From NCBI GenBank assembly GCA_017983955.1, contig JAGOAJ010000004.1, positions 84,821-148,820 on the forward strand: DNA of 64,000 nucleotides, given 5' to 3'. Under the pieces are notes generated by a model. The model did no database searches. It saw only the letters and a list, made by a program, of their open reading frames with translations, and had not been told where the DNA came from. The position numbers and the translations under genes were made by a program. This DNA is from Burkholderiaceae bacterium (GTDB lineage: Bacteria > Pseudomonadota > Gammaproteobacteria > Burkholderiales > Burkholderiaceae_B). Positions 24,873 through 36,816 of this stretch are shown here, one piece after another; positions within the stretch are counted from its first letter, which is position 1; every line of letters starts with the position of its first letter.

Positions 24873-27473
24873 ATGACTCTCTGGCGGCGCTACATCAGAC
24901 AGTGCGTAAAACTCAGCTTACTGGCAGTGGTTTTACTTACTGGTCTACCTGCCAACACCGCTTGGGCTAACTCTCAGCCTGTCCGTGTGGGCACCTTTGA
25001 CAACGCACCTAACTTGTTGCTGTCCGATGACGGGCGCCCTGCAGGCATATTGGGCGAAATCTTGCAGGAAATCGCCCGCCGTGAACAATGGCAACTAGAG
25101 GCTGTTCCATGCGAATGGCAGGAATGCATACACAAGCTGCAAACTGGCCAGATAGACCTGCTACCCGATGTGGCGTACACCCCCGAGCGCGAATTCCTAT
25201 ACAGTTTTCACGAAGTTCCAGCCCTGCACAATTGGTCCCAGGTGTATGTTGCGCCCGGCACGGAAATACATTCTGTACTGGATATGGAGGGCAAGCGTGT
25301 CGTTGCATTAACGGCTTCCGTCCAATATATCTTCACTAAATCATTGCTAAGTAATTTTGGCGTCCAAGCAACCTTATTAGGTGTGCCTAACCAAGAAGAC
25401 GCCTTTGCTCTGGTAAGCAACAGCCAAGCTGATGCCGTTGTGGCCAGCTATTACTATGGCGAGACCCATGCCTCACGCTATGGCCTAACAGCCACCAGCC
25501 TGATGTACGAACCAACCCGTTCATTTTATGCCGCCAAGAAAAATCACAACCCACAGCTACTGGCCGCCATAGATAAGCACCTGGCCGCCTGGCAAAGCGA
25601 TCCTCAATCCATCTACTTCACTATTTTGCATCGCTGGGGCAAAGTGGCAACACCCAGCCCGATACCGCTGATGTTTTGGTGGGGCGTAGCCGCCTTGGTC
25701 GTATTGTTGTTGCTGGCACTAAGCATAGCCGCATTACTGAAAAACCAGGTTGCACGGCAAACACGCCATATCAAGGCCCGGGAAATATGGCTCAATACCG
25801 TACTGGAAAGCGTTGACGCCTTTATCTACATCAAAGACAAAAATTTCCGCTACAAATACTGCAATCAAAAAGCCACTGATTTTCTAGGTCTACAACCCAG
25901 TGAAATGATAGGTCGCACCGACAGCGAAATATTTGTGGGTCACGCCAGGTTAGCAGGCATCGAAGAAAGCGACAGACGCATCTTGGACAAGGGCGGTCGG
26001 GTAGTCACCGAGGACGGCGTGGTGTCCTTTGCCGAACGCAACGAAACCCGCTCACTGGTCACCGTCAAACTGCCTTTGTTGGATGCCAAGGGAAATATCA
26101 GCGGTATCTGCGGCATAGCCACAGACATCACTGAACTCAAAGCTGCCCGTGACACCGTGCATCAACTGGCCTATTACGACCCTCTGACCAAGCTGCCCAA
26201 CCGGCAACTGTTACTGGCTAAACTTGAACAGGCGCTGCAGGCGGCACAGGACAACAACTTTAGCTCGGCCGTGCTGTTTATCGACCTAGACGATTTCAAA
26301 AAGCTCAATGATGCACGCGGCCACCTGACAGGCGACATCTTGCTGTGCCATGTGGGCGAGCGCCTGCAATATGTCATACGTAACAACGACACTGTCGCCC
26401 GTATTGGTGGCGATGAATTCGTCGTGCTGCTGACCCAGCTAGGGTCGAATCCCGACGCGGCCATCAACAAAGCCATGTATGTCGCTGAAAAAATCCGTAT
26501 TGCGCTGACCCAGCCCTTTCAGATTGATGGTCAGCCCTTCTGGTCAGGCGCCAGCATAGGCGTCACTATGCTCTACGGCGGAACAAAATCCACCGAAGAC
26601 CTGCTGCGCGAGGCAGACACCGCCATGTACCGATCCAAGGCGGCCGGACGCAATCGGGTAACCTTGTACCTGACCAGCATGCAAACCGAAACAGAAGAGC
26701 GCCTGTCCCTGGAACACGATATCGCCCAGGCAGTCAATGACGAACAATTTGAAATCTATATACAGCCACAATTCAATCCGGCTCGTGAGATTACCGGAGC
26801 CGAGCTGTTAATACGCTGGCGGCATCCAGAGCGCGGCATGGTCCCACCTAGCTTGTTTATCCCTGTGGCTGAACAGACCGGCGCCATCATACGCATAGGT
26901 GAATGGACACTGTATCAAGCCTGTAAAGCATTAATGATGCCCAGCATCGCCAGCGCCAGTTATCCACTGTCAATTAACGTCAGCCCCAACCAGTTCAACG
27001 AACCTAGCTTTGTGCAGAAGGTCAAACGTACCTTACTGGAAACAGGTGCACCAGGCCATAGACTAATTTTTGAAATTACGGAAGGTGTGCTGATACATAA
27101 TCTGCAAGAAACCCTGCCGCGCATGGCCGACTTGGCAATGCTAGGCATACGTTTCTCGATTGATGACTTTGGCACCGGTTATTCCAACTTAAGCAATCTG
27201 AAGCGCCTGCCCCTGTTCGAGCTGAAAATCGATCAAAGCCTTACCCAAGACACGCCACATGACCCCGACAGTACGGTCATCGTTAAGTTGATACTGGCCA
27301 TGGCCCAGCAACTAGGCATACAAGTCGTGGCCGAGGGTGTAGAGACCACTGAACAGGCCGAGTTCCTGATCGACCATGGCTGCCAGGCCCTGCAAGGCTA
27401 TCTGTTCATGCGCCCCATGCCCCTAAGCGCATGGCCGCCTGAAGACCAAAAGCTACTGAGCAACCCACTTTAG
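24873..27473 (+). CDS. Periplasmic-sensor PAS-GGDEF-EAL cyclic-di-GMP enzyme
   Basis: A membrane signalling protein. After a signal or anchor (about 1-32) comes a family 3 solute-binding domain (about 35-255, VRVGTFDNAPNLLLSDDGRPAGILGE) facing the periplasm. A helix follows at about 266-290, then a PAS domain (about 300-415), GGDEF (about 425-590) and EAL (about 605-860). RIGGDEF near 509 is intact, and RNND ahead of it fits the RxxD inhibitory site, so feedback by c-di-GMP is likely. The EAL motif reads ELL, but the metal and catalytic residues in SINVSP, EITEG, DDFGTGYS, LKID and VAEGVE are kept. Both synthesis and breakdown of c-di-GMP are therefore possible. The binding domain may sense an amino acid. 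Its stop overlaps that of the convergent ZIP gene. Confidence 0.92.
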   Translation: MTLWRRYIRQCVKLSLLAVVLLTGLPANTAWANSQPVRVGTFDNAPNLLLSDDGRPAGILGEILQEIARREQWQLEAVPCEWQECIHKLQTGQIDLLPDVAYTPEREFLYSFHEVPALHNWSQVYVAPGTEIHSVLDMEGKRVVALTASVQYIFTKSLLSNFGVQATLLGVPNQEDAFALVSNSQADAVVASYYYGETHASRYGLTATSLMYEPTRSFYAAKKNHNPQLLAAIDKHLAAWQSDPQSIYFTILHRWGKVATPSPIPLMFWWGVAALVVLLLLALSIAALLKNQVARQTRHIKAREIWLNTVLESVDAFIYIKDKNFRYKYCNQKATDFLGLQPSEMIGRTDSEIFVGHARLAGIEESDRRILDKGGRVVTEDGVVSFAERNETRSLVTVKLPLLDAKGNISGICGIATDITELKAARDTVHQLAYYDPLTKLPNRQLLLAKLEQALQAAQDNNFSSAVLFIDLDDFKKLNDARGHLTGDILLCHVGERLQYVIRNNDTVARIGGDEFVVLLTQLGSNPDAAINKAMYVAEKIRIALTQPFQIDGQPFWSGASIGVTMLYGGTKSTEDLLREADTAMYRSKAAGRNRVTLYLTSMQTETEERLSLEHDIAQAVNDEQFEIYIQPQFNPAREITGAELLIRWRHPERGMVPPSLFIPVAEQTGAIIRIGEWTLYQACKALMMPSIASASYPLSINVSPNQFNEPSFVQKVKRTLLETGAPGHRLIFEITEGVLIHNLQETLPRMADLAMLGIRFSIDDFGTGYSNLSNLKRLPLFELKIDQSLTQDTPHDPDSTVIVKLILAMAQQLGIQVVAEGVETTEQAEFLIDHGCQALQGYLFMRPMPLSAWPPEDQKLLSNPL

Positions 27474-28333
27474 CCTAAGGCAGTATCCAACAACATCATC
27501 ATGACAAAGCCTATCAATAGCCCACCAGTGGCGCTGGCCTCGTGACCCTGGCGGTGTGATTCCGGAATAATTTCATGGCTGACCACAAACAGCATGGCAC
27601 CAGCCGCTGCCGCCAGTCCCCAAGGCAGCAAAGCAGCCGACATCCCTATCAAGGCGACTCCCAGCACAGCGGCCACGGGCTCAACCAAGCCGGACAATAT
27701 GCCCACCGACACCGCCAGCCACTTGCTATAACCCACACCCATCAAGGCCAACGCCACCACCAACCCTTCAGGGATATCTTGTATCGCAATGCCAACCGTC
27801 AACGCCTGGGCACCCACCAAATCCGGCCCCGCAAAAGCCACACCTATCGCCAGGCCTTCCGGAAAATTATGCAAGGTAATTGCCAGGACAAACAGCCACA
27901 CCCGTTTAAGCTTTTTAGCCTGGCTGCCCTCGACGCCTTTGATGAAATGTTCGTGCGGCACCGCCCTGTCGATTAACAATAAAAACAAGGCACCCAGCAA
28001 GATTCCAGCGCCAACAATCGCACCCGCCCCCCAGGGCCCTGCGCCCTGATCACGGGCGATGGCCAAACTAGGAATAACTAATGAGAACGAGGTAGCGGCC
28101 AGCATGACGCCTGCACCAAAACCCAGCAAGGTGTCGTTAACCCGCTGCGACAGCCCACGCGTGACAATAGCGGGCACCGTACCCAAAGCGGTCGCGGCGG
28201 CGGCTAGCAAGCCACCCCACAAAGCACCCTGCACATGCGGGTCATTGGCCAAGAGCCGAACATAAACATCGTTCAGCAATAGGGCTATACCCACCAAGAC
28301 AATGGTAAAACCTACCCAATAACGCATCGTCAT
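27470..28333 (-). CDS. ZIP-family divalent metal transporter
   Basis: An inner-membrane ZIP permease that imports zinc or related divalent cations. Its 287 aa hold about eight hydrophobic helices. The metal-binding helix IV reads ALTLHNFPEGLAIGVAFAG in form (HNFPEG near 151), helix V holds QDIPEGLVVALALMG, and HEIIPESH near 253 matches the GufA branch of ZIP proteins. The ATG at 28333 has AGG nearby. Its stop shares three bases with the stop region of the convergent GGDEF/EAL gene (27470-27473). Confidence 0.92.
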   Translation of the reverse strand: MTMRYWVGFTIVLVGIALLLNDVYVRLLANDPHVQGALWGGLLAAAATALGTVPAIVTRGLSQRVNDTLLGFGAGVMLAATSFSLVIPSLAIARDQGAGPWGAGAIVGAGILLGALFLLLIDRAVPHEHFIKGVEGSQAKKLKRVWLFVLAITLHNFPEGLAIGVAFAGPDLVGAQALTVGIAIQDIPEGLVVALALMGVGYSKWLAVSVGILSGLVEPVAAVLGVALIGMSAALLPWGLAAAAGAMLFVVSHEIIPESHRQGHEASATGGLLIGFVMMMLLDTALG

Positions 28334-28483
28334 CGCAACGACCTAATGTGTATAAGGATTACCTATTATGCACGCATGCGGCTCAATAGTTACAGCACGC
28401 GGGTGTCGATTGCTCCGAAATAGGAAAAATGCTATACGGAAGGGTGCCTGCCAGGAAAAATAACAAACACCGGAGGAAGCAGC

Positions 28484-29026
28484 ATGTGGTCGTGGATACC
28501 CAAATACCGGCTGGCAGTAATCGCCACCGCCGTACTGATTAGCGGTTGCGCCAGCCTATCGCCAGAAGAATGTCGTACCGTGCAGTGGCACGAGCAAGGT
28601 ATGCGCGATGGCCAAAATGGTCACCCGCGCGCGCGCGCAGACCAGCACCGCGAAGCCTGTGGAAAAGTTGGGGTCGCCCTGGACATGCAGCAATACGAAG
28701 CCGGACGGGCCATAGGCATACGCCGATATTGCACCCCGGAAAACGGTCTGCAAGCAGGACGGCTGGGGCGCTCTTACCAGAACTCTTGTCCGCCCGAACT
28801 GGAAGGTCCCTTTCTGGACAACTACCGTAGCGGCTACCGCGTCTACGAAGCCCAGCAATATGTAGAACGCCTGGACCGCGAACTTAGCAGCAAGGAATAC
28901 AGTTTACGCAAGGCGAAAGACGACCGCGAACGTTCCAGGCTACGTTCCGACCTTAGGGATCTGGATCGCCGACTGCGCCACGCCCGAGACGATGTTTACC
29001 AGGCGGAACGGCGTTTGCGTAATTAA
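28484..29026 (+). CDS. DUF2799-like outer-membrane-type lipoprotein
   Basis: A small predicted lipoprotein of unknown function. The N-terminal signal ends in LISGC, a clear lipobox, with Cys near residue 22. The following ECRTVQWHEQGMRDGQNG matches DUF2799 proteins, with a second repeat-like copy later (DNYRSGYRVYEAQ). The last 50 residues are highly charged (RELSSKEYSLRKAKDDRERSRLRSDL broken over the segment) and likely form a coiled coil. Length is 180 aa. A GGAGGAAG ribosome site precedes the ATG. A 13-base CG run at 28626-28638 lies within the gene. It converges with the TSUP exporter. Confidence 0.8.
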   Translation: MWSWIPKYRLAVIATAVLISGCASLSPEECRTVQWHEQGMRDGQNGHPRARADQHREACGKVGVALDMQQYEAGRAIGIRRYCTPENGLQAGRLGRSYQNSCPPELEGPFLDNYRSGYRVYEAQQYVERLDRELSSKEYSLRKAKDDRERSRLRSDLRDLDRRLRHARDDVYQAERRLRN

Positions 29027-29093
29027 ACTGCACCAGCTGTTTTCCAAGCGCCATTAGACTTTCGGCACGTAGCTGATCGCTGCAACGTACAGT

Positions 29094-29894
29094 TCAACCC
29101 AACAACATATAAATGCCGACAACAAAGACTGTCGTTGCGAACACCATGTTTAGTACGCCGCGTTTACTCGCAAGGCGCGTCGCAAGCTGCGCACCACCCC
29201 ACCCCCCCATCACCCCGCCCGCTATAAACTCCAGAGCAATAGGCCAATCGACCAAACCAGATCGAGCATAGTTAAGTGCCGTTGTTAGTCCGAAGCTGCC
29301 AACACCAAACAATGACGTTCCAATAGCCTCAATAATCGGTAGCCGGGCAGATAGCATCAGTCCGGGAACGATAAGAAAGCCACCGCCGATACCGAAAAAT
29401 CCTGCTAATGCCCCGGTGCCTATACCTGTACTCGATAGCCTCACTCCCAACTGTGCTGAAGAGGGCATCTGTATAGATGCATCCACCGTTTGACGCGCAC
29501 GGACCATAAAAATAGACATAATGATCATTAGCATTGCGAAGAGGCTGATCAAACGGCTCCCATCCATCAACTTTCCAAGTTGAGAGCCCGCCAAAGCCCC
29601 GACTATACCCATGCTGGTAAAAAGGAATGCCTTACGCCAATGCACATGTTTGGCACGTGCGTGAGGAATCAAGTTGACATAAGCATTGATGGAAACAGCC
29701 AAAGCACTAGTGCCGATCACAAGATGGATGTTGTCCATGCCAACAACATAGATAAGTAATGGCACGGCGAGAATCGAGCCGCCGCCTCCCGTCAGTGCCA
29801 GTGCAAATCCCGTCACCCCGCCACAGGCAAGAACCAATGCATGAAAAGTCCATAGGCCTTCCATCACTGCCACCATGCTGGTGTTTGTAGTCAT
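29094..29894 (-). CDS. TSUP (TauE/SafE) family anion exporter
   Basis: An inner-membrane protein of the sulfite exporter TauE/SafE family, 266 aa with about eight helices. The first repeat is FALALTGGGGSILAVPLLIYVVG and the second GTGALAGFFGIGGGFLIVPGLML; these paired Gly-rich motifs define the family. ATG 29894 is used, with a GTG one codon upstream as the alternative; neither has a strong ribosome site. Members export sulfite, sulfoacetate or other sulfur anions in sulfonate breakdown. Here it is divergent from a TAXI-TRAP, dehydrogenase and UxaA-type lyase cluster, which suits disposal of sulfite. That role is inferred from context. Confidence 0.88.
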   Translation of the reverse strand: MTTNTSMVAVMEGLWTFHALVLACGGVTGFALALTGGGGSILAVPLLIYVVGMDNIHLVIGTSALAVSINAYVNLIPHARAKHVHWRKAFLFTSMGIVGALAGSQLGKLMDGSRLISLFAMLMIIMSIFMVRARQTVDASIQMPSSAQLGVRLSSTGIGTGALAGFFGIGGGFLIVPGLMLSARLPIIEAIGTSLFGVGSFGLTTALNYARSGLVDWPIALEFIAGGVMGGWGGAQLATRLASKRGVLNMVFATTVFVVGIYMLLG

Positions 29895-29980
29895 CACAGT
29901 TGCACGCCATATTTAAACTTTTGGTTATAAGCAAATAGCTTGACGTAATATACAGAGACAGTTATAAACTTGTCAATCGA

Positions 29981-30024
29981 CCCATTTCAAAGAATCCTGC
30001 CCAGGAATGATTCTTTGAAATGGG
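29981..30024. repeat. Long inverted repeat, 16-bp perfect arms
   Basis: CCCATTTCAAAGAATC (29981-29996) and GATTCTTTGAAATGGG (30009-30024) are perfect complements around a 12-base loop. It lies between the divergent TSUP exporter and the TAXI-TRAP operon. No T-run follows on either side, so an ordinary terminator is unlikely. An operator or the trace of a small mobile element are alternatives. Confidence 0.6.
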
Positions 30025-30044
30025 CTTGCTAAACATTAGCAAGC
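30024..30044. repeat. Second adjacent hairpin, 9-bp arms
   Basis: GCTTGCTAA (30024-30032) and TTAGCAAGC (30036-30044) form a perfect 9-bp stem with a 3-base loop. It abuts the preceding 16-bp inverted repeat, sharing base 30024. The pair sits 59 to 122 bases before the TTG start of the TRAP permease gene, in its likely promoter or leader. Confidence 0.5.
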
Positions 30045-30102
30045 CAGCATTTCTATCGAATAACTAAACTAAAAATCAACAACTAAATCACGGAGAAACA
30101 AC

Positions 30103-31974
30103 TTGGTCTCACAAAAAATTCAAGGCATGGGGGTTACGACGATAGCGGTTGTGTGGGGGATCTTCCAGCTGTATACCGCCTATGATCCGGTGCTTGACCC
30201 CATCCGCCTTGGCGCGGTACACCTAGCTTTTGCGTTGACCTTGGTGTTCATCCGTTTCCCACTGTTTTCAGGTCGTTTGAAAACTTTAGGCAACGTAATC
30301 AGTGCTGTCGAAATTGCACTTACGATAGCCACCACCATCTATATCTGCAAAGAAATATACGAGCTTTCATCTCGTATTGGCATGTTTGAGCCACTCGATA
30401 CATTTTTTGGTTCATTGGCCATCATTCTTGTGCTCGACGGATGCCGTCGGGTCATGGGGCTGGGGCTGGTCTCGCTGGTGATGGTCTTTCTGGCGTACGC
30501 GTACTGGGGCCACCTGATCCCCGGACTGGCCGGCCACGTCGAACTGAGCCACGACTATATTGTCAGTGAGCTTTTCATGGGCTCAAGCGGTATCTTCGGC
30601 ACACCTATGATGGTTGCCGCATCTTACGTAATGTTGTTTGTGTTGTTTGGCACCTTCATGGAGGCAACCGAGGGAACTGAACTACTGATGCGTGTAGCCC
30701 AAAGAGCAATGGGATGGGCACGTGGCGGCGCTGCAAAAATGGCGGTTTTAGTTAGTGGCCTTTTCGGTACGATTTCCGGTGCGTCGGTAGCAAACGTCGC
30801 CACGGTGGGTTCATTGACAATCCCCCTGATGCAACGCTCCGGATTCTCTGGAAAAGTTGCTGGTGGGATCGAAGCGGCTGCGTCTACAGGCGGGCAGATC
30901 ATGCCACCTGTGATGGGCGCCGCCGCGTTTATTATGGCCGCCATGCTTGGTATTCCTTACTCCGACGTTGCCATGGGTGCCCTGATACCTGCTATTTTGT
31001 TTTATGTCAGTCTTCTCCTGGCTGTCGACTTGGAAGCCAAGCAACTAGACATCCGTGGTATTCCGGTTAAGGACTTGCCTAAGCTCAAATCGGTACCGTT
31101 ACGATCCTGGATACTTCTGAGCCCTATTGCTGTCCTGGTTTACCTTTTAATGGTTGTGGGCATCAGCGCTACTTTGGCCGGTCTGTATGCCTTGCTGGCG
31201 ACAGTTGCCGTGGGCGTCATTAGCTTAGGCTGGAAATTCCTGCCGCGTATGATAGGTGCCTTTCGTGCTGGGGCAGCGGCAATGCTACAGGTGTCGGTCG
31301 CCGTCGCTGCCGCTGGCATCATCATTGGGGTCATCAGTTCTACGGGGCTAGACAGCAAGTTTTCGACCATTATCCTGCAGGCCACGGAAGGCAACTTATT
31401 GCTTACTCTTATCGCTACGGCAGTTGCGGCCATCGTGCTAGGAATGGGCATGCCCACTGTAGGTGTCTACTTGATACTGGCGATACTTGTGGCGCCTGCC
31501 TTGGTCGACCTGGGTGTCACGCCGCTGGCTGCGCATATGTTCATCTTTTATTTCGGCATTATGTCGACCATCACCCCTCCAGTCGCTCTTAGCGCGTTTG
31601 CAGCAGCTGGAATTTCAGGGGCCAACCCGACAGCTACCGGATTCTATGCTTTCAAATTGGCGATTGCCGGATTTGTGATTCCCTTTCTTTTCGTTTATTC
31701 ACCGAGCCTACTATTTGCCGATGGCGCGGGAGTCGATGTATTCAGGATTGCGGGCGCCACGCTGGCGATCATTGCCATGACGATCGCCATGGCAGGCACT
31801 TGGTTCGTCACAATGTCACGCCTGGAGCGGCTCCTAACCGGATTGGGTGCAGTTCTGCTGATATTCCCTGAACGTACGTCCAGCATAGTGGCGATCGTTC
31901 TATTGGTTGCATTGTTTTTCTACCAAAAGCAGAAGGCGCGTCGAATGATAAATCAGACCGGCTTAGTGACTTAA
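30103..31974 (+). CDS. TAXI-type TRAP transporter fused permease (second copy)
   Basis: A fused DctQM permease of 623 aa with about 16 or more hydrophobic segments. Core signatures are [53 protein letters not shown] and LGMGMPTVGVYLILAILVAPALVDLGV. It starts at TTG 30103, supported by GGAG 7 bases upstream; the next ATG is at 30127. Unlike the 879-aa copy at 20886 it lacks the C-terminal DUF3394-like extension. Codon use is AT-richer than in flanking genes. It is followed by its TAXI receptor, an Ldh2 dehydrogenase and UxaA-type subunits, so it probably imports their substrate. Confidence 0.92.
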   Translation: MVSQKIQGMGVTTIAVVWGIFQLYTAYDPVLDPIRLGAVHLAFALTLVFIRFPLFSGRLKTLGNVISAVEIALTIATTIYICKEIYELSSRIGMFEPLDTFFGSLAIILVLDGCRRVMGLGLVSLVMVFLAYAYWGHLIPGLAGHVELSHDYIVSELFMGSSGIFGTPMMVAASYVMLFVLFGTFMEATEGTELLMRVAQRAMGWARGGAAKMAVLVSGLFGTISGASVANVATVGSLTIPLMQRSGFSGKVAGGIEAAASTGGQIMPPVMGAAAFIMAAMLGIPYSDVAMGALIPAILFYVSLLLAVDLEAKQLDIRGIPVKDLPKLKSVPLRSWILLSPIAVLVYLLMVVGISATLAGLYALLATVAVGVISLGWKFLPRMIGAFRAGAAAMLQVSVAVAAAGIIIGVISSTGLDSKFSTIILQATEGNLLLTLIATAVAAIVLGMGMPTVGVYLILAILVAPALVDLGVTPLAAHMFIFYFGIMSTITPPVALSAFAAAGISGANPTATGFYAFKLAIAGFVIPFLFVYSPSLLFADGAGVDVFRIAGATLAIIAMTIAMAGTWFVTMSRLERLLTGLGAVLLIFPERTSSIVAIVLLVALFFYQKQKARRMINQTGLVT

Positions 31975-32016
31975 CGCTAACAAAGAAGTGCTAATTAATA
32001 AATATTGGAGATGAAT

Positions 32017-32994
32017 ATGAAGACGGAGATATTTCACGGTAAGGCCGGCATACTCGCAAGTTCACTGCTGGCGCTTTCCATGATGCTGTGCCAACCAACG
32101 GCAGAAGCGGCAAATCGCTATGCCTTCGCCACGGCTGGGCAAGGCGGCACCTATCACATTCTTGGTGCAGCCATCGCAGACTTGATCAACAAAAATAGCG
32201 ACAACATCCAACTAACGGCTACAGCGACCTCAGGAACTGCAGCAAACGTACCCCTGATTCATTCCGGGCAAATGAAAATGGGCTTTGGCAACTCCCCGTC
32301 AGACAAGGCGGCCGCCGATGGCTCGCCTCCCTTTAAAAAGCCATTTGATAACCTGCGCGTCATGATGATCGGTTATACAAACCCGGGCGCTTTCATTGCG
32401 CGCGCTGACTCCGACATCAAAACAATTGAGGATTTCCGCGGCAAGCGGATTTCCATGCCTGTGGGTGCTCCTGCCACGAAGGTCATGCAAACCTTGCTCT
32501 CCGCATATGGCATGGAGGCTGGCAAAGACTACACCGCAATCCCAATCAACTTTGGGCAAGCCGTCGAAGCGCTACAGGACCGACGTATCGACGTCTCTTT
32601 GCAGTGGGCCGCTCCGCCATCACCTGCAGTGTTGCAAATGGCAGAGCTATTCCCGATTCGGATTATTCCTATCGACAATGAAAAAGCCCTTGCAGCCGTT
32701 AAGGAAAAGTTGGGCGTTATTCCCTACACATTCAAGGCACAGGTCTATAAAGGCATTGATGAGCCTGTCGCGTCGATTGCCATGCAGCAAAGCTTCCTGG
32801 TCAATAAAGACGTGCCCAATGAGGATGTGCAAGAGTTCATCAGGTTGGTTACAGAGAATACTGCCACATTGGCAAAGTCGCATTCTGTTGGGGCAGAGCT
32901 GACTTTGGAAAATGCAGCACGTGCTCTGGACTATGAGTTACCACCGCATCCGGGCGCTGTGGAGTATTTCAAGGAAAAGGGCTTTTCCAAGTAA
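32017..32994 (+). CDS. TAXI-family TRAP periplasmic receptor (second copy)
   Basis: The periplasmic receptor for the permease just upstream. The ATG at 32017 is preferred, with GGAG 6 bases before it, over an in-frame TTG at 32005. The signal peptide spans about 1-31, ending PTAEAA. The mature start NRYAFATAGQGGTYHILGAAIADLIN and LTATATSGTAANVPLIHSGQM are TAXI features. Length is 325 aa. It is clearly divergent from the receptor at 23586, so a different ligand is expected. Neighbouring lyase genes point to a 2-hydroxy acid or sulfonate, which is inference. Confidence 0.92.
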   Translation: MKTEIFHGKAGILASSLLALSMMLCQPTAEAANRYAFATAGQGGTYHILGAAIADLINKNSDNIQLTATATSGTAANVPLIHSGQMKMGFGNSPSDKAAADGSPPFKKPFDNLRVMMIGYTNPGAFIARADSDIKTIEDFRGKRISMPVGAPATKVMQTLLSAYGMEAGKDYTAIPINFGQAVEALQDRRIDVSLQWAAPPSPAVLQMAELFPIRIIPIDNEKALAAVKEKLGVIPYTFKAQVYKGIDEPVASIAMQQSFLVNKDVPNEDVQEFIRLVTENTATLAKSHSVGAELTLENAARALDYELPPHPGAVEYFKEKGFSK

Positions 32995-33099
32995 TAGACC
33001 ACGCAATCCACCAAGTCATCGGCACGCGACTGATCAATGGATAGCAATCGGTTCTGATGACTCCAAATAAAATCTGACTATTAAAAGAGCTAATAAATT

Positions 33100-34152
33100 A
33101 TGGAAAAAAACATATCGTATTCCGACCTAATCGAGATATGCGCCGCTGTTTTTAGAGCAGTGGGTGTGCCGTCCGATGTCGCCGAAGTCGTAGCGGAAAA
33201 TCTGGCATATGGGGACCTGAGAGGCGTGAGCTCACATGGCGTTGTGCGAGTGCCAATCTATGTACGCAGGGTTGAGGAAGGAGTAATAGATCCGAATAGC
33301 CAAATTGTCGTGGAAAAAGAGAGTGGCAGCACATTACTCGTGGATGGTTCCAACAATTTTGGAGCGTACGTCGGCATTAGCGCTCTTAGATTAGGGATTA
33401 AAAAAGCTAAAGACCAAGGGGTATGTGCAATAGGCATCAAAGGATCTAATCATTACGGCTTGGGGGCCTATTATGCAGCTGAAGCCATAAAGCATGGGTG
33501 CTTGCTAATCGCCGCTTCTAATGCTCCTCAGACCATGGCTCCCGTTGGGGGCGTACGCCCATTTCTGGGAACGAACCCACTGACCATTGGAGTGCCCACC
33601 AAGAATGGCGCACCATTCATGCTGGATATGGCAACTAGCGTGGTTGCTCGTGGCCGCATGATGGTCGCCGAAAAACAGGGCACACAAATCCCCAATGACT
33701 GGGCCATAGACACTGAGGGAAATCCGACCAGCGATCCGACGCTTGCACTTCAAGGATCTCTACTTCCGCTTGGCGGATTCAAGGGGTTTGGATTAGCTAT
33801 GGCCCTTGATATCTTGTCAGGCGTTTTGACCGGCGCAGGTTACGGACCAAGCGTAAATAGCTTATACGAAGATTTCTCTAAGTCCCAAAACGTGGGGCAC
33901 TTTTTTATTGTGGTGGATATTTCCAAGTTTATTGATATCAATGAATTTCAGGACAGGATGCAACACTACATTGATTTGCTCAAGAAAGAGCCAGTACATC
34001 AGGATACCACCGAGCTTTTTTATGCAGGCGAGCTAGAGCACAAGAAAGAGCAAAACTCACGTAAAGAAGGCATCGTTATCCCATCGCAGATCCGTGAAAG
34101 CCTGATGGCCCTTGCCCAGAAGTACGAGATAGATGTAGATGTATTGAACTAA
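33100..34152 (+). CDS. Ldh2-family (malate/L-lactate/sulfolactate-type) dehydrogenase
   Basis: An NAD(P)-dependent 2-hydroxyacid dehydrogenase of the Ldh2 family, distinct from classical LDH/MDH. Hallmarks are YGDLRGVSSHGVVRVPIYVRR at about 49-69, IGIKGSNHYGLGAYYA with the active-site histidine near 123, and LDMATSVVARGRMMVAEKQG. GGFKGFGLAMALDILSGVLTGAGYG is the C-terminal cofactor region. At 350 aa it is full length. The family includes ComC, the (R)-sulfolactate dehydrogenase, as well as malate, ureidoglycolate and diketogulonate enzymes. Neighbouring UxaA-type subunits and a TSUP exporter favour a sulfolactate or similar role. Confidence 0.85.
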   Translation: MEKNISYSDLIEICAAVFRAVGVPSDVAEVVAENLAYGDLRGVSSHGVVRVPIYVRRVEEGVIDPNSQIVVEKESGSTLLVDGSNNFGAYVGISALRLGIKKAKDQGVCAIGIKGSNHYGLGAYYAAEAIKHGCLLIAASNAPQTMAPVGGVRPFLGTNPLTIGVPTKNGAPFMLDMATSVVARGRMMVAEKQGTQIPNDWAIDTEGNPTSDPTLALQGSLLPLGGFKGFGLAMALDILSGVLTGAGYGPSVNSLYEDFSKSQNVGHFFIVVDISKFIDINEFQDRMQHYIDLLKKEPVHQDTTELFYAGELEHKKEQNSRKEGIVIPSQIRESLMALAQKYEIDVDVLN

Positions 34153-34220
34153 TCAGCCTTTCTAAAAAACATTCCTTCTTTAATTAGATAAGTGAACCAC
34201 TGATAACGGAGATAGTAGTT

Positions 34221-34475
34221 ATGAAAAAAGCAAGTGGGCGGGTGAGCATAATAGTCCACTGTAACGACAACGTAGCCACCCTGCTGGATAACGATGTCGA
34301 TAGTGACCATCTTATAACCGGAATGGCATTGCAAACAGGGGTTGCAATGGGCCATAAGATCGCTCTAATTGATATCGCTACCGGAGAGACAATTACCAAG
34401 TACGGCGTCACTATCGGTGTCGCAACACAACCAATATCAAAAGGAGACCACGTCCATGTTCACAACTGCGCCTAA
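34221..34475 (+). CDS. UxaA-type lyase small subunit (SAF domain), SuyA-like
   Basis: An 84-residue SAF-domain protein, the size of the small subunit of split UxaA-family lyases. The typical segments are HCNDNVATLLDN, ALQTGVAMGHKIALIDIATGETITKYG and IGVATQPISKGDHVHVHN, matching the N-terminal domain of altronate dehydratase and the SuyA subunit of (2R)-sulfolactate sulfo-lyase. GGAG precedes the ATG. Its last 20 bases overlap the large subunit start, so the two are translationally coupled at a fixed ratio. SuyA is favoured by gene context; altronate or galactarate chemistry cannot be excluded by sequence alone. Confidence 0.82.
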   Translation: MKKASGRVSIIVHCNDNVATLLDNDVDSDHLITGMALQTGVAMGHKIALIDIATGETITKYGVTIGVATQPISKGDHVHVHNCA

Positions 34476-35658
34476 ACAAACTCAGCCTGTTCTCTCCGAT
34501 GATTCGGGATGGTTTCAAGGATTTCACCGCGAAGATGGCTCGGTAGGTGTGCGCAATCATATGGTTGTGCTGTCCACTGTTGCGCTAACAAATAGATGGG
34601 CAGAGCTCGCCGCCGAAGAAAATACAGAGGCGTATGTTCTTTCTGGGGATTTTTTGCGTGGACTGCGTGGGGAAGATGCTGCAGTTCAGGACACCGTGTT
34701 GCGTACCTTTGTAACGCATCCCAACGTCGGGGCAACACTCATCTTATGTTTTGATCGTGTTAGTGGTAAAAGCTGGCGCGACTGGGCCAAGAGCGTCGGT
34801 CGCCCCGTTGAAGTGTTGACCATGATAGAACAAGACGGCATGAGCGCGGCGGTACAGCATGCAAGGCAGGCACTGGCCCGACTCGATACAGAACGTCAGA
34901 AGGCGAGCAGAAAGCCAGCTCCGTTATCTGCCCTGACTATAGCGCTTGAGTGTGGAGGTTCGGATGCGACAAGCGCCTTATGTTCAAACCCTGCGGTGGG
35001 GCGATTCGTAGAGCGAGTCATTGACGCCGGAGGTACAGCGATTGTATCCGAGACTGCCGAGTTTATTGGTACCGAACCTATCATCGAGCAACGGGCAGTG
35101 AATGATGATGTTCGTCGAAAAATCATCGAAAGCATTTCGAATGCCGATCAACGAATGCACGATGACAGCTCACGTTATAGAGGGATCAATCCTACAGCCG
35201 AAAATATCGAAGCCGGGCTTACGACCCTAGTTGAGAAATCCATGGGTGCGGTATGCAAAATCGGTGATTGCAAGCTTGATGGTTGGTTAGCGTTTGGCGA
35301 AGCGGCAGGATCGCCTGGTATGTACTTTATGGACACTCCGTTTTTCAGCCCCATATCGCTCACTGGTATGGTGGCGGCCAGAGCTCAGATTGTCCTGTTC
35401 ACCATAGGCGTGTTTAATCCTTCAGGAAATCCGATTGCCCCTACCATCAAAATATGCGGGAACTCGAATACTATAAAAACGTGGCATGAGGCCATCGATC
35501 TCGATGTCTCGGCGGTTGTTTTCGGTTTAGAGACATTAGATGATTCAGCCGACCGCATCGAGGCATCTGTGATGAATGTGGCAAACGGAGCTGTAACGAA
35601 AAACGAGAGCCTGGGTGACGGTCAGATTATCATTCCAAAGACCTGCCCTCTAATCTAG
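34456..35658 (+). CDS. UxaA/GarD-type lyase large subunit, SuyB-like
   Basis: The catalytic large subunit of a UxaA-family lyase, 400 aa. The opening FQGFHREDGSVGVRNHMVVLSTV is the family signature. ALTIALECGGSDATSALCSNPAVGRFVERVIDAGG, VSETAEFIGTEP and VFNPSGNPIAPTIKICGNSNT are the other conserved blocks, including the cysteines thought to bind iron. AGGAG precedes ATG 34456, which lies inside the small subunit gene; an upstream in-frame ATG at 34369 lacks a site. In SuyB this enzyme eliminates sulfite from (R)-sulfolactate to leave pyruvate. The nearby TSUP exporter and Ldh2 enzyme support that, but substrate specificity is not proven. Confidence 0.82.
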   Translation: MFTTAPKQTQPVLSDDSGWFQGFHREDGSVGVRNHMVVLSTVALTNRWAELAAEENTEAYVLSGDFLRGLRGEDAAVQDTVLRTFVTHPNVGATLILCFDRVSGKSWRDWAKSVGRPVEVLTMIEQDGMSAAVQHARQALARLDTERQKASRKPAPLSALTIALECGGSDATSALCSNPAVGRFVERVIDAGGTAIVSETAEFIGTEPIIEQRAVNDDVRRKIIESISNADQRMHDDSSRYRGINPTAENIEAGLTTLVEKSMGAVCKIGDCKLDGWLAFGEAAGSPGMYFMDTPFFSPISLTGMVAARAQIVLFTIGVFNPSGNPIAPTIKICGNSNTIKTWHEAIDLDVSAVVFGLETLDDSADRIEASVMNVANGAVTKNESLGDGQIIIPKTCPLI

Positions 35659-35660
35659 TT

Positions 35661-35697
35661 AAGTCGACAAAGCGCTAGACGGGCGCGGCGTCGACTT
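35661..35697. terminator. Probable bidirectional terminator between convergent genes
   Basis: AAGTCGAC (35661-35668) pairs with GTCGACTT (35690-35697), with GC-rich bases between that can extend the stem. It lies directly after the UxaA-type large subunit and overlaps the rfbB stop codon. AT-rich bases flank both sides. It marks the right edge of the AT-richer block. Confidence 0.5.
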
Positions 35698-36719
35698 TAA
35701 TAATAACCCGCACGGCTCAGGCTCACGGACCGCCCCAAAAACCACCTGACCGTCTCCGCAATCCCTTCCTTAAACGTATGGGTCGCCCGCCAGCCCAGCT
35801 CCTGCTGGGCCTTACTGGCATCGATGGCGTAACGCAGATCATGGCCGGGACGGTCGCTAACATGAGTAATCAGATCACGGTAAGGCCGTCCAGGGGATGG
35901 GTGCAGTTCTTGTAAGACGTCGCAAATAGTCAGGACCACATCCATGTTGTGTTGCTGGTCGTGGCCGCCTAAGTTGTAGCTGGCCCCGACCACGCCTTTA
36001 GTCAGTACGGTGTACAGGCCCAAAGCGTGGTCTGCCACGTATAGCCAGTCGCGTACTTGCTGGCCGTTGCCATAGATGGGTATGGGCTGGCCGACCATGG
36101 CATTTAGTATGACGGTGGGGATTAGCTTTTCGGCATGCTGCCAAGGGCCGTAGTTGTTGGCGCAGTTGCTAATCACCACAGGCAGGCCATAGCTGCGATG
36201 CCAAGCACGCACTAGGTGGTCGGCGCTGGCTTTGCTGGCCGCATAGGGTGAACTGGGGGCGTAAGGGCTGGCTTCGGTGAACAGCCCGGCGCTGTCGCCC
36301 AGGTCGCCATACACCTCGTCAGTGGATACATGGTGAAAGCGAAAGCTGGCCTGGCGCTGTGGCGATAGCTGCTGCCAGTAACAACGACTGGCTTCCAATA
36401 AATGAAAGCTGCCCATGATGTTGGTGTTCATGAAGACGGCTGGACCGTGTAATGAACGGTCTACATGGGATTCGGCGGCCAGGTGCATGACGGCATCGGG
36501 TTGATGTTGCTGGAAAATACGGTCTAGCGAAGCACGGTCGCAGATGTCTGCTTGCTCGAATACATAACGGGGGTTTTGCGTGACGCTAGCGATAGCGGCC
36601 AGGTTGCTGGCGTAGGTCAGTTTGTCCAGGTTAACCACAGAGTCTGTTGTATGGTTAATAAGATGACGGACAACTGCTGAGCCAATAAAACCCGCGCCAC
36701 CAGTGATCAGTATTTTCAT
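35697..36719 (-). CDS. rfbB: dTDP-glucose 4,6-dehydratase
   Basis: A short-chain dehydrogenase-family enzyme that turns dTDP-glucose into dTDP-4-keto-6-deoxyglucose for rhamnose and other deoxysugars. The NAD motif is [19 protein letters not shown] at the N-terminus. [12 protein letters not shown] holds the Thr-Asp-Glu catalytic set, and [15 protein letters not shown] supplies Tyr and Lys near 160. ATG 36719 is chosen by alignment to family members (340 aa); an upstream ATG at 36752 is possible. No rfbA, rfbC or rfbD follows, so it is isolated here. A TATAAT box directly abuts the chosen start. Confidence 0.93.
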
Positions 36720-36726
36720 GGGGGAA

Positions 36727-36732
36727 ATTATA
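36727..36732 (-). promoter_or_regulatory. TATAAT -10 hexamer abutting the rfbB start codon
   Basis: On the minus strand a perfect TATAAT is followed by 7 bases and then the rfbB ATG, so transcription could begin at or next to the A of the start codon. The -35 region is weak (TTAATG at about 17 bases). No ribosome site lies before this ATG. A leaderless mRNA is possible, or the hexamer may be chance. Confidence 0.35.
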
Positions 36733-36816
36733 CTCAGCAACGGTGCCACCATTAACTACAACAGCAGCACCGCCAGATACGACTCGCGGATCAAGCCCGC
36801 TATAGCTATAGATTAC

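Follow-up and report, generated by a model that had tools for sequence, protein, structure and literature searches.

A TAXI-TRAP cassette with a split lyase related to SuyAB in a Burkholderiaceae bacterium, and its candidate substrates

A 64,000-nucleotide stretch of DNA from a Burkholderiaceae bacterium (GCA_017983955.1, contig JAGOAJ010000004.1, positions 84,821 to 148,820; hereafter the window) carries a six-gene cassette in which a TSUP (TauE/SafE) permease gene is divergent from genes encoding a TAXI-TRAP permease and receptor, an Ldh2-family dehydrogenase and the overlapping small (84 aa) and large (400 aa) subunits of a UxaA-type lyase. All six open reading frames (ORFs) were found where the original prediction had placed them and passed the curated cut-offs of their broad families (Table 1). 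Sequence comparison identifies the large subunit as a sister of the SuyAB enzyme, neither SuyB itself nor an altronate or galactarate dehydratase. The cassette would probably import an organic acid and split it with this two-part enzyme, and uptake followed by α,β-elimination of a 3-substituted lactate is our best reading of it. More specifically, it may have been acquired for the catabolism of a 2-hydroxy acid with a leaving group at C3, for which 3-sulfolactate or a very close relative is the leading candidate, a proposal to which we give somewhat less than an even chance; sulfolactate-like and non-sulfonated substrates are put at equal odds. Papers are cited by PMC number from partial texts, and statements drawn from them are limited to those parts.

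As SuyB anchors we used four plasmid loci chosen by their C3-sulfonate gene context, and the names SuyB, SlcC and ComC rest here on that context and on published routes (PMC10507020, PMC12421959, PMC6278857). The small and large genes are accompanied by hpsN and hpsO in Cupriavidus pinatubonensis (L018). In Paracoccus seriniphilus (L019), the cluster comprises TRAP genes, a hisD-like gene, the small and large genes, TTT genes and genes for a hydroxyacid dehydrogenase, an Ldh2 protein and a putative sulfate exporter. In Methylobacterium oryzae (L023), the order is TauE/SafE, small, large, NAD(P)-dependent oxidoreductase and Ldh2, and in Rhodococcus koreensis (L025) it is small, large, aldehyde dehydrogenase (ALDH), MFS, hydroxyacid dehydrogenase and Ldh2. 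Among 61 relatives searched with the large subunit, no other genome gave a match exceeding 35%, and a search of 398 phylum genomes at 1e-64 returned a single match (37%). At the same threshold the 369 class genomes and the 300 order genomes gave one clear orthologue each besides the window's own (G115, 53%; G872, 52%). An alignment of the large subunits of the window, G115 and G872 was used to search named genomes; relatives are encoded in 390 stretches, of which the 80 best were retained. Forty-one of these loci (L035-L074 and L076), 42-59% identical over the best segment, form the clade of the window protein, and the other 39, which encode other UxaA-type proteins at 32-38%, served as controls. 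Four loci without a long ORF (L057, L061, L074, L076) were put in the clade by identity only, and the tree accordingly holds 37 clade loci and the window. The large subunits of L055 and L056 are identical. From the eleven relatives' loci L007-L017 the tree includes L010 and L013 alone, as the others gave no ORF of sufficient length in the stretch covered.

In an unrooted maximum-likelihood tree of 92 large subunits, the window protein falls in a 38-row clade with a support of 100/100. This clade, the four SuyB anchors with L013, and the Variovorax protein L022 with L010 together make up a 45-row side of the tree (100/92), and five fused GarD/UxaA-type references form a separate group (100/92) to which the window clade does not belong. 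The window clade and the SuyB clade are separate, each supported at 100/100, which places the large subunit outside the SuyB clade; the branching order within the 45-row side is poorly supported (87/39). In the clade rows displayed, the motifs GVFNPSG (TGQGN in SuyB) and PFFSP set the window clade apart. The small-subunit orthologues are 51-54% identical. Division of the lyase into two chains was considered as a mark of SuyAB and rejected, since split UxaA-type pairs from Ponticoccus (L020, where the cluster also has an L-rhamnose mutarotase gene), from Escherichia albertii (L021) and from Haladaptatus (L024) sit elsewhere in the tree. It should also be noted that L022 (Variovorax sp. SRS16) and L010 constitute a third small group of Cys-poor UxaA-type large subunits, and that the split lyase of L022 is found with an Ldh2 protein, a hydroxyacid dehydrogenase and a TctC-type receptor.

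The window clade shares SuyB's most telling active-site change, a dismantled iron site. Across the UxaA/GarD superfamily, cysteines 134, 173, 208 and 276 are described as conserved and as the likely common site of iron binding, "except for sulfolactate sulfo-lyase" (PMC6336799). The corresponding columns were set via a fused homologue (Cys 134, 169, 204 and 272), the last two steps of which, 35 and 68, match those in PMC6336799. All 45 rows of the SuyB side carry a non-Cys residue, Arg, a gap and Cys at the four columns, the first residue being Leu, Ile or Asn (Leu in 38/38 window-clade rows). The window protein has L44, R68, a gap and C166 and keeps one of the four iron cysteines. Outside the SuyB side, 45 of the 47 rows keep all four, the exceptions being Haladaptatus L024 and L085. 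As the UxaA/GarD iron site is dismantled in the same way as in SuyB, the leaving group may be a better one than hydroxide, for instance sulfite. Regarding the Haladaptatus salinisoli locus (L024:5019-7641), its UxaA genes are arranged large-small-large, and the first large subunit is without three of the four iron cysteines and shows a pattern at these columns (A, T, I) unlike that of the SuyB side.

These data also bear on altronate-like sugar acids, named as the alternative in the original prediction. If the lyase were simply an altronate or galactarate dehydratase divided between two chains, this would agree with the galactarate dehydratase model TIGR03248 being the sole NCBIfam match of the two subunits at 0.01 (44 and 143.5 bits, cut-off 730.85), and with GarD being the one solved structure found to be related to the large subunit, by sequence or by fold. 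The predicted structure (AlphaFold, 27 sequences, pLDDT 89.9) matched only GarD 6u7l in the PDB at E<0.001 (four chains; best E 8.8e-27, TM 0.74, rmsd 8.6). However, this explanation is contradicted by the tree, in which the subunits were put outside the altronate/galactarate clades and on the SuyB side; moreover, three of the four iron cysteines are gone and no uronate gene was found among the nine neighbouring proteins scanned (27470-36752). We consider it very improbable.

The genes surrounding the lyase were counted at the 41 clade and 39 control loci by phmmer searches of all-frame ORFs at 1e-8 with single reference proteins, by which more distant family members would be missed. All-frame ORFs were used because longest-ORF calling missed some genes, and the absences are lower bounds because several clade loci are cut by contig ends. 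The SAF small subunit is encoded at 40 clade and 30 control loci. A GMC oxidoreductase was found at 33/41 clade loci and 0/39 control loci, an MR_MLE protein (enolase superfamily) at 18 versus 2, and an ALDH at 13 versus 1. As to importers, NMT1 receptors were detected with two queries at 20 and 3 clade loci (no control locus), TRAP DctP at 12 (none), TctC at 15 (2 controls), TRAPQM at 3 (none) and TAXI at 2 (none), the TAXI-like proteins being distant from that of the window (25-26% identity). Two sulfatase queries gave 9 and 1 clade loci and no control locus. The remaining counts, clade versus control, were 1 and 0 for TSUP, 1 and 1 for Ldh2 including ComC-like proteins, and 1 and 4 for SlcC-like proteins; SuyZ, HpsN and RraA were found at none of the 41 and none of the 39 loci. 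What recurs is a catabolic cluster of a split Cys-poor UxaA-type lyase with a GMC oxidoreductase, less often an MR_MLE protein or an ALDH, and an NMT1-type ABC or TRAP importer. Its hosts include lake Betaproteobacteria, Roseobacteraceae and Granulosicoccus, and the record titles name lakes, groundwater and marine bacteria. No paper on a GMC-linked clade with these recurring partners was found in the literature searched. The window is an outlier in its own clade, with a TAXI-TRAP transporter and an Ldh2 enzyme and without adjoining GMC, MR_MLE or ALDH genes. Most clade members may thus start from an alcohol, through GMC and ALDH enzymes, and the bearer of the window cassette would import the acid directly.

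Further genes accompany the lyase at some clade loci, among them LacI or GntR regulators, short-chain dehydrogenases/reductases (SDRs), a thiamine pyrophosphate (TPP) enzyme and a DeoC/LacD aldolase. At L068, L069, L071 and L073, mostly Alphaproteobacteria by title, TRAP genes, SDRs, a TPP enzyme and a DeoC/LacD-type aldolase surround the lyase, a version that resembles a sugar or cyclitol pathway. The TPP enzymes were considered as sulfonate enzymes and rejected: the best models for that of L030 are acetolactate synthases below cut-off, and the frame of L043 matches a generic thiamine pyrophosphate protein. Sulfatases stand beside the clade lyase at L042:11226-13223 and eight further loci, and at L038:1628-3565. 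A CxPSR motif is present at 8 of the 10 sulfatase loci (formylglycine-type FPICAPSR in seven, LCVPSR in one), and the two representatives scanned belong to PF00884.

Partners of this kind lead to another explanation, namely that the cassette serves a non-sulfonated hydroxy or sugar acid. The lyase would then be an unusual dehydratase that lacks the iron site with its four cysteines and has water as the leaving group; TAXI-TRAP and Ldh2 would supply its substrate, and the TSUP protein would export or import something else or be an unrelated neighbour. The GMC, MR_MLE, ALDH and sulfatase partners, rare or absent in the controls, also fit the oxidation of a sugar or polyol. In the same direction point the nearest plasmid kin of the window Ldh2, found in RraA, iron-containing alcohol dehydrogenase and ALDH loci, and the rarity of this TSUP type in the clade. 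Against this reading stand the missing iron cysteines, three out of four and in the pattern of SuyB and of the third small group, and a TSUP protein related to a sulfite exporter at two places in the clade, the window and Afipia. To a non-sulfonated acid, too, we assign a probability a little short of one half.

Regarding the dehydrogenase, the window Ldh2 is 27-28% identical to two complete ComC-position proteins and, in a tree of 10 Ldh2 proteins, falls apart from them in a group with Ldh2 enzymes from RraA, iron-containing alcohol dehydrogenase and ALDH clusters. Its best NCBIfam match is L-sulfolactate dehydrogenase (303 bits), under the cut-off of 500. This match was rejected as evidence for ComC, since calibration shows that the model does not discriminate: ComC-position Ldh2 proteins from suyAB-type clusters score 186 and 164, and an Alkalihalophilus plasmid Ldh2 without annotated SuyAB nearby scores 321. 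The five nearest plasmid relatives of the window Ldh2 (43-53% identity) are all encoded with RraA, an iron-containing alcohol dehydrogenase and an ALDH; TRAP genes occur at four of these loci and a D-2-hydroxyacid or D-glycerate dehydrogenase at three, and no UxaA/SuyAB gene is annotated within 7 kb of any of the five. One clade locus, L046 (on the same contig as L030), has a ComC-like Ldh2 (46-47% identity to ComC; grouping 92/94) encoded no more than 10 kb from the clade subunits, together with TTT transporter genes and a protein similar to FAD-linked D-2-hydroxyacid dehydrogenases, a set that speaks for a sulfonate substrate. The best SlcC candidates of the window's genome show 38-43% identity to a pair of anchors which share 62% with each other; it should be noted that the hydroxyacid dehydrogenase of the Rhodococcus cluster itself reaches only 41-43% to these anchors. 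The original prediction held that all parts of a sulfolactate route except SlcC were present, a claim that fails for both lyase and dehydrogenase. The known SuyAB-ComC route, made of true orthologues with a swapped transporter, would involve the same kinds of parts and would account for the 303-bit match, but the calibration deprives that match of its weight, and orthology is contradicted by the separate clades at 100/100 and by identities of 29-32% to SuyB and 27-28% to ComC. Such a route is most unlikely.

The TAXI receptor and the fused DctQM permease, which both exceed their family cut-offs, constitute a TAXI-TRAP transporter. The receptor was aligned with 8s4j, whose residues agree with thirteen VcGluP positions from PMC11574862 at an offset of 28. 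Only Y45 is kept out of six VcGluP ligand residues probed, S75 being replaced by T, Q93 by N, E125 by N, Y200 by Q and M201 by W. Gln93 and Glu125 of VcGluP contact the amino group of glutamate, as does Tyr45 (PMC11574862), and the presence of Asn at both of the former positions argues against glutamate as the ligand. The residue changes would fit a ligand other than glutamate and favour no particular acid. No close relative of the receptor was found in plasmids, where all 357 matching records are below 60% and the 15 matches listed are at 28-31%, and none besides the window's own was found in the 300 order genomes at 1e-60. Sulfolactate uptake has been ascribed to the TTT transporter SlcHFG (PMC5812351), and DctPQM2 of T. 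muris, a TRAP importer adjoining suyAB, is given as a putative sulfolactate importer (PMC10507020). The supposed novelty of the uptake system must therefore be narrowed: a TRAP importer beside suyAB is already in print, and what stands is that the label TAXI does not appear in the available part of that paper and that no TAXI-type sulfolactate importer is described in the parts of the literature searched.

The sulfonate might also arise inside the cell, a transaminase converting cysteate to sulfopyruvate, which Ldh2 would reduce and the lyase would cleave with no import of sulfolactate. SuyAB has been tied to L-cysteate metabolism (PMC6336799). Ldh2 and the lyase alone would suffice for this route, which would not need SlcC. 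The title of Rein et al. 2005 reportedly makes the same link between SuyAB and L-cysteate. However, no aminotransferase was found among the proteins scanned, and in the TAXI receptor the VcGluP residues Gln93 and Glu125, both of which contact the amino group, are replaced, although Tyr45, a third contact, is kept. We consider a cysteate-derived route improbable.

The window TSUP belongs to the TauE/SafE family and is kin of a described sulfite transporter, with sulfite as its putative substrate. Over 84% of its length, it is 54.7% identical to the TSUP of the bigR-blh operon of Agrobacterium pAt3 and 57.3% identical to a TSUP in a sulfur-type gene cluster of Paraburkholderia with DsrE-, YeeE-, sulfur-transferase- and cytochrome-type neighbours; these are the two contexts examined from 231 matching plasmid records. 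The TauE-related protein of the bigR operon is described as a sulfite transporter (PMC5823870), and TSUP proteins are reported to act as exporters of further anions as well, sulfoacetate and sulfolactate among them (PMC10413263). Neither BigR nor Blh was found among the neighbouring window proteins scanned. A second case of a window-type TSUP beside a clade lyase occurs in Afipia birgiae (L043), where co-directional genes encode ALDH, SAF and large subunits, an NMT1-type receptor, ABC proteins, GMC and TSUP. The proposed role of the TSUP as a sulfite exporter thus gains from its kinship with the bigR-operon transporter and suffers from its presence at only one of the 41 clade loci.

Several observations weigh against a sulfonate as the substrate. 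First, the lyase is only 29-32% identical to the SuyB anchors, which share 58-78% among themselves; CGGS is found in 38/38 window-clade rows where SuyB has CGES (4/4 anchors), and the C-terminal KTKRW tail of SuyA (3/4 anchors) is present in 0/40 clade small subunits. Second, the cassette has no SlcC. Third, a conserved TSUP partner was sought across the clade and the type was found at 1/41 loci; the window TSUP has no match even at 1e-10 in 13 of 16 clade genomes searched whole, and its type occurs in 21/299 phylum genomes, its own included. Afipia has four copies of it, one of which would lie within 10 kb of the lyase in about 1.5% of cases by chance (an estimate, 4 x 20 kb / 5.3 Mb), so that this second case is not proof. 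Fourth, the sulfatases at 10/41 clade loci point to sulfate esters instead. Finally, FeCl2 was added in an assay of recombinant SuyAB (PMC6278857), and "iron-free" SuyAB chemistry is therefore not established. Taken together, the sulfolactate reading of the original prediction is supported by the lyase, through its place beside SuyB and its iron-site loss, and weakly by the TSUP, and has lost the orthology of both lyase and dehydrogenase.

If the cassette does act on a 3-substituted lactate, the TAXI-TRAP importer would take up the acid, its family being established by the profile matches and its ligand inferred. The Ldh2 enzyme, likewise of established family, would interconvert the hydroxy acid and the 2-oxo acid, feeding or setting the correct stereoisomer. 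The SAF and GD_AH subunits, whose fold and place next to SuyB were observed, would take the α proton and expel the C3 group to give a 2-oxo acid such as pyruvate. The divergent TSUP, kin of the bigR-operon transporter, would export sulfite.

Table 1. Features of the cassette region, in window positions
Feature	Position	Strand	Basis or remark
TSUP (TauE/SafE) permease, 267 aa	29094..29897	-	PF01925, 152.7 bits (cut-off 32.6); candidate exporter of released anion
21-nt inverted repeat	29981..30024	.	divergent intergenic region; possible operator or hairpin
TRAP transporter fused permease (DctQM), 623 aa	30103..31974	+	TIGR02123, 597.9 bits (cut-off 320.65)
TAXI-type solute receptor	32011..32994 (listed ORF from TTG 32005)	+	TIGR02122, 206.6 bits (cut-off 84.35)
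Ldh2-family 2-hydroxyacid dehydrogenase, 350 aa, not ComC	33100..34152	+	Ldh_2 PF02615, 396.4 bits (cut-off 38.8); identities, tree
Small SAF-domain subunit, 84 aa, of split UxaA/SuyAB-type lyase	34221..34475	+	SAF PF08666, 23.0 bits (cut-off 21), weak; backed by altronate hydrolase SAF domain 3k3s, E 1.3e-12
Large GD_AH subunit, 400 aa, SuyB-sister clade	34456..35658	+	GD_AH_second, 64.5 bits (cut-off 27.3); GD_AH_C (PF20629), 240.6 bits (cut-off 26.8); tree, cysteine columns

The small and large lyase ORFs, which together encode separate SAF and GD_AH chains, share 20 bases, and the ATG of the large subunit is preceded by GGAG 9 bases upstream. GGAG also precedes the TTG start of the permease, and the receptor probably starts, as judged from the sequence, at ATG 32011 or 32017 rather than at the listed TTG. 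The gaps between the five plus-strand genes, taken from the listed ORFs, are 30, 105, 68 and -20 bases; with such close spacing a single transcript is plausible. The divergent gap between the TSUP and permease genes is 205 bases. It contains the inverted repeat, whose arms are 90% complementary and which has no second locus in the genome (E 0.001). A second short hairpin-like sequence follows this repeat. A sigma-70-like site (11/12) lies before the TSUP gene at 29976-29947 on the minus strand; promoter-like sites are no commoner in the region than in shuffled sequence (6 versus a mean of 8.5), and the promoter and terminator scans were not used as evidence. The bin 32001-36000 has a G+C content of 0.503, the lowest of the sixteen 4-kb bins of the window (0.522-0.586 for the other 15). 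In G001, the single same-genus genome examined, nothing matches the large subunit at E<=0.001, and the TSUP has no match at 1e-30 in 40 relatives searched, G001 included. Given this low G+C content and the absence from the relatives searched, the label "island" is fair. Elsewhere in the window (24873-27473), an 866-aa protein was read from its translation as having an N-terminus like that of a periplasmic receptor, as well as a GGDEF motif with an EAL-like sequence after it.

We judge the conserved GMC-linked clade to be more interesting than the sulfolactate reading. SuyAB is the sole UxaA/GarD-family member without the iron site described in the available part of the survey PMC6336799, and the window clade is a second clade on that side of the family, at 41 public-genome loci. 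Speculatively, and with doubt prevailing, its members might form a second family of C-S lyases of the SuyAB type, present in Beta-, Alpha- and Gammaproteobacteria, most with a GMC alcohol oxidase and many with an ALDH and an SsuA-like or TRAP importer. They would then provide a complete new route in which a C3 sulfonate alcohol, for instance dihydroxypropanesulfonate, is turned into pyruvate and sulfite. MR_MLE would serve as a hydroxy-acid racemase, and the window would hold a short form with direct uptake of the acid by TAXI-TRAP. If the clade does cut C-S bonds, the marker set suyAB, slcC and comC overlooks some C3-sulfonate mineralisers; otherwise, missing iron cysteines are no mark of sulfo-lyases.

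The cassette can finally be compared with known systems. With VcGluPQM, a TAXI-TRAP glutamate transporter, it shares a TAXI-type receptor, a TRAP membrane partner and Tyr45, whereas five of the six ligand residues probed are changed. Its dehydrogenase belongs to the same family as ComC, the Ldh2-family sulfolactate dehydrogenase, but is distant from the two bacterial ComC-position proteins (27-28%) and has RraA-linked Ldh2 enzymes as nearest plasmid kin. The TSUP resembles the bigR-operon sulfite transporter (54.7% to the Agrobacterium pAt3 copy) in a setting without BigR or Blh among the neighbours scanned. As in UxaA and GarD, the altronate, galactarate and D-arabinonate dehydratases, the lyase has the fold of GarD 6u7l and a CGGSD core, but its iron site is dismantled, its chains are split and it lies outside the clade of the fused references. 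With SuyAB, it shares the two-gene layout of SAF small and GD_AH large subunits, the loss of the same three iron cysteines and a common side of the tree; moreover, an anion exporter adjoins 2/4 anchor clusters (L019, L023) as the TSUP adjoins the window cassette. It differs from SuyAB by its identity of 29-32%, by CGGSD in place of CGESD and GVFNPSG in place of TGQGN, by the lack of the SuyA KTKRW tail, and by standing without HpsN or SlcC alongside and with an Ldh2 enzyme that is not ComC.

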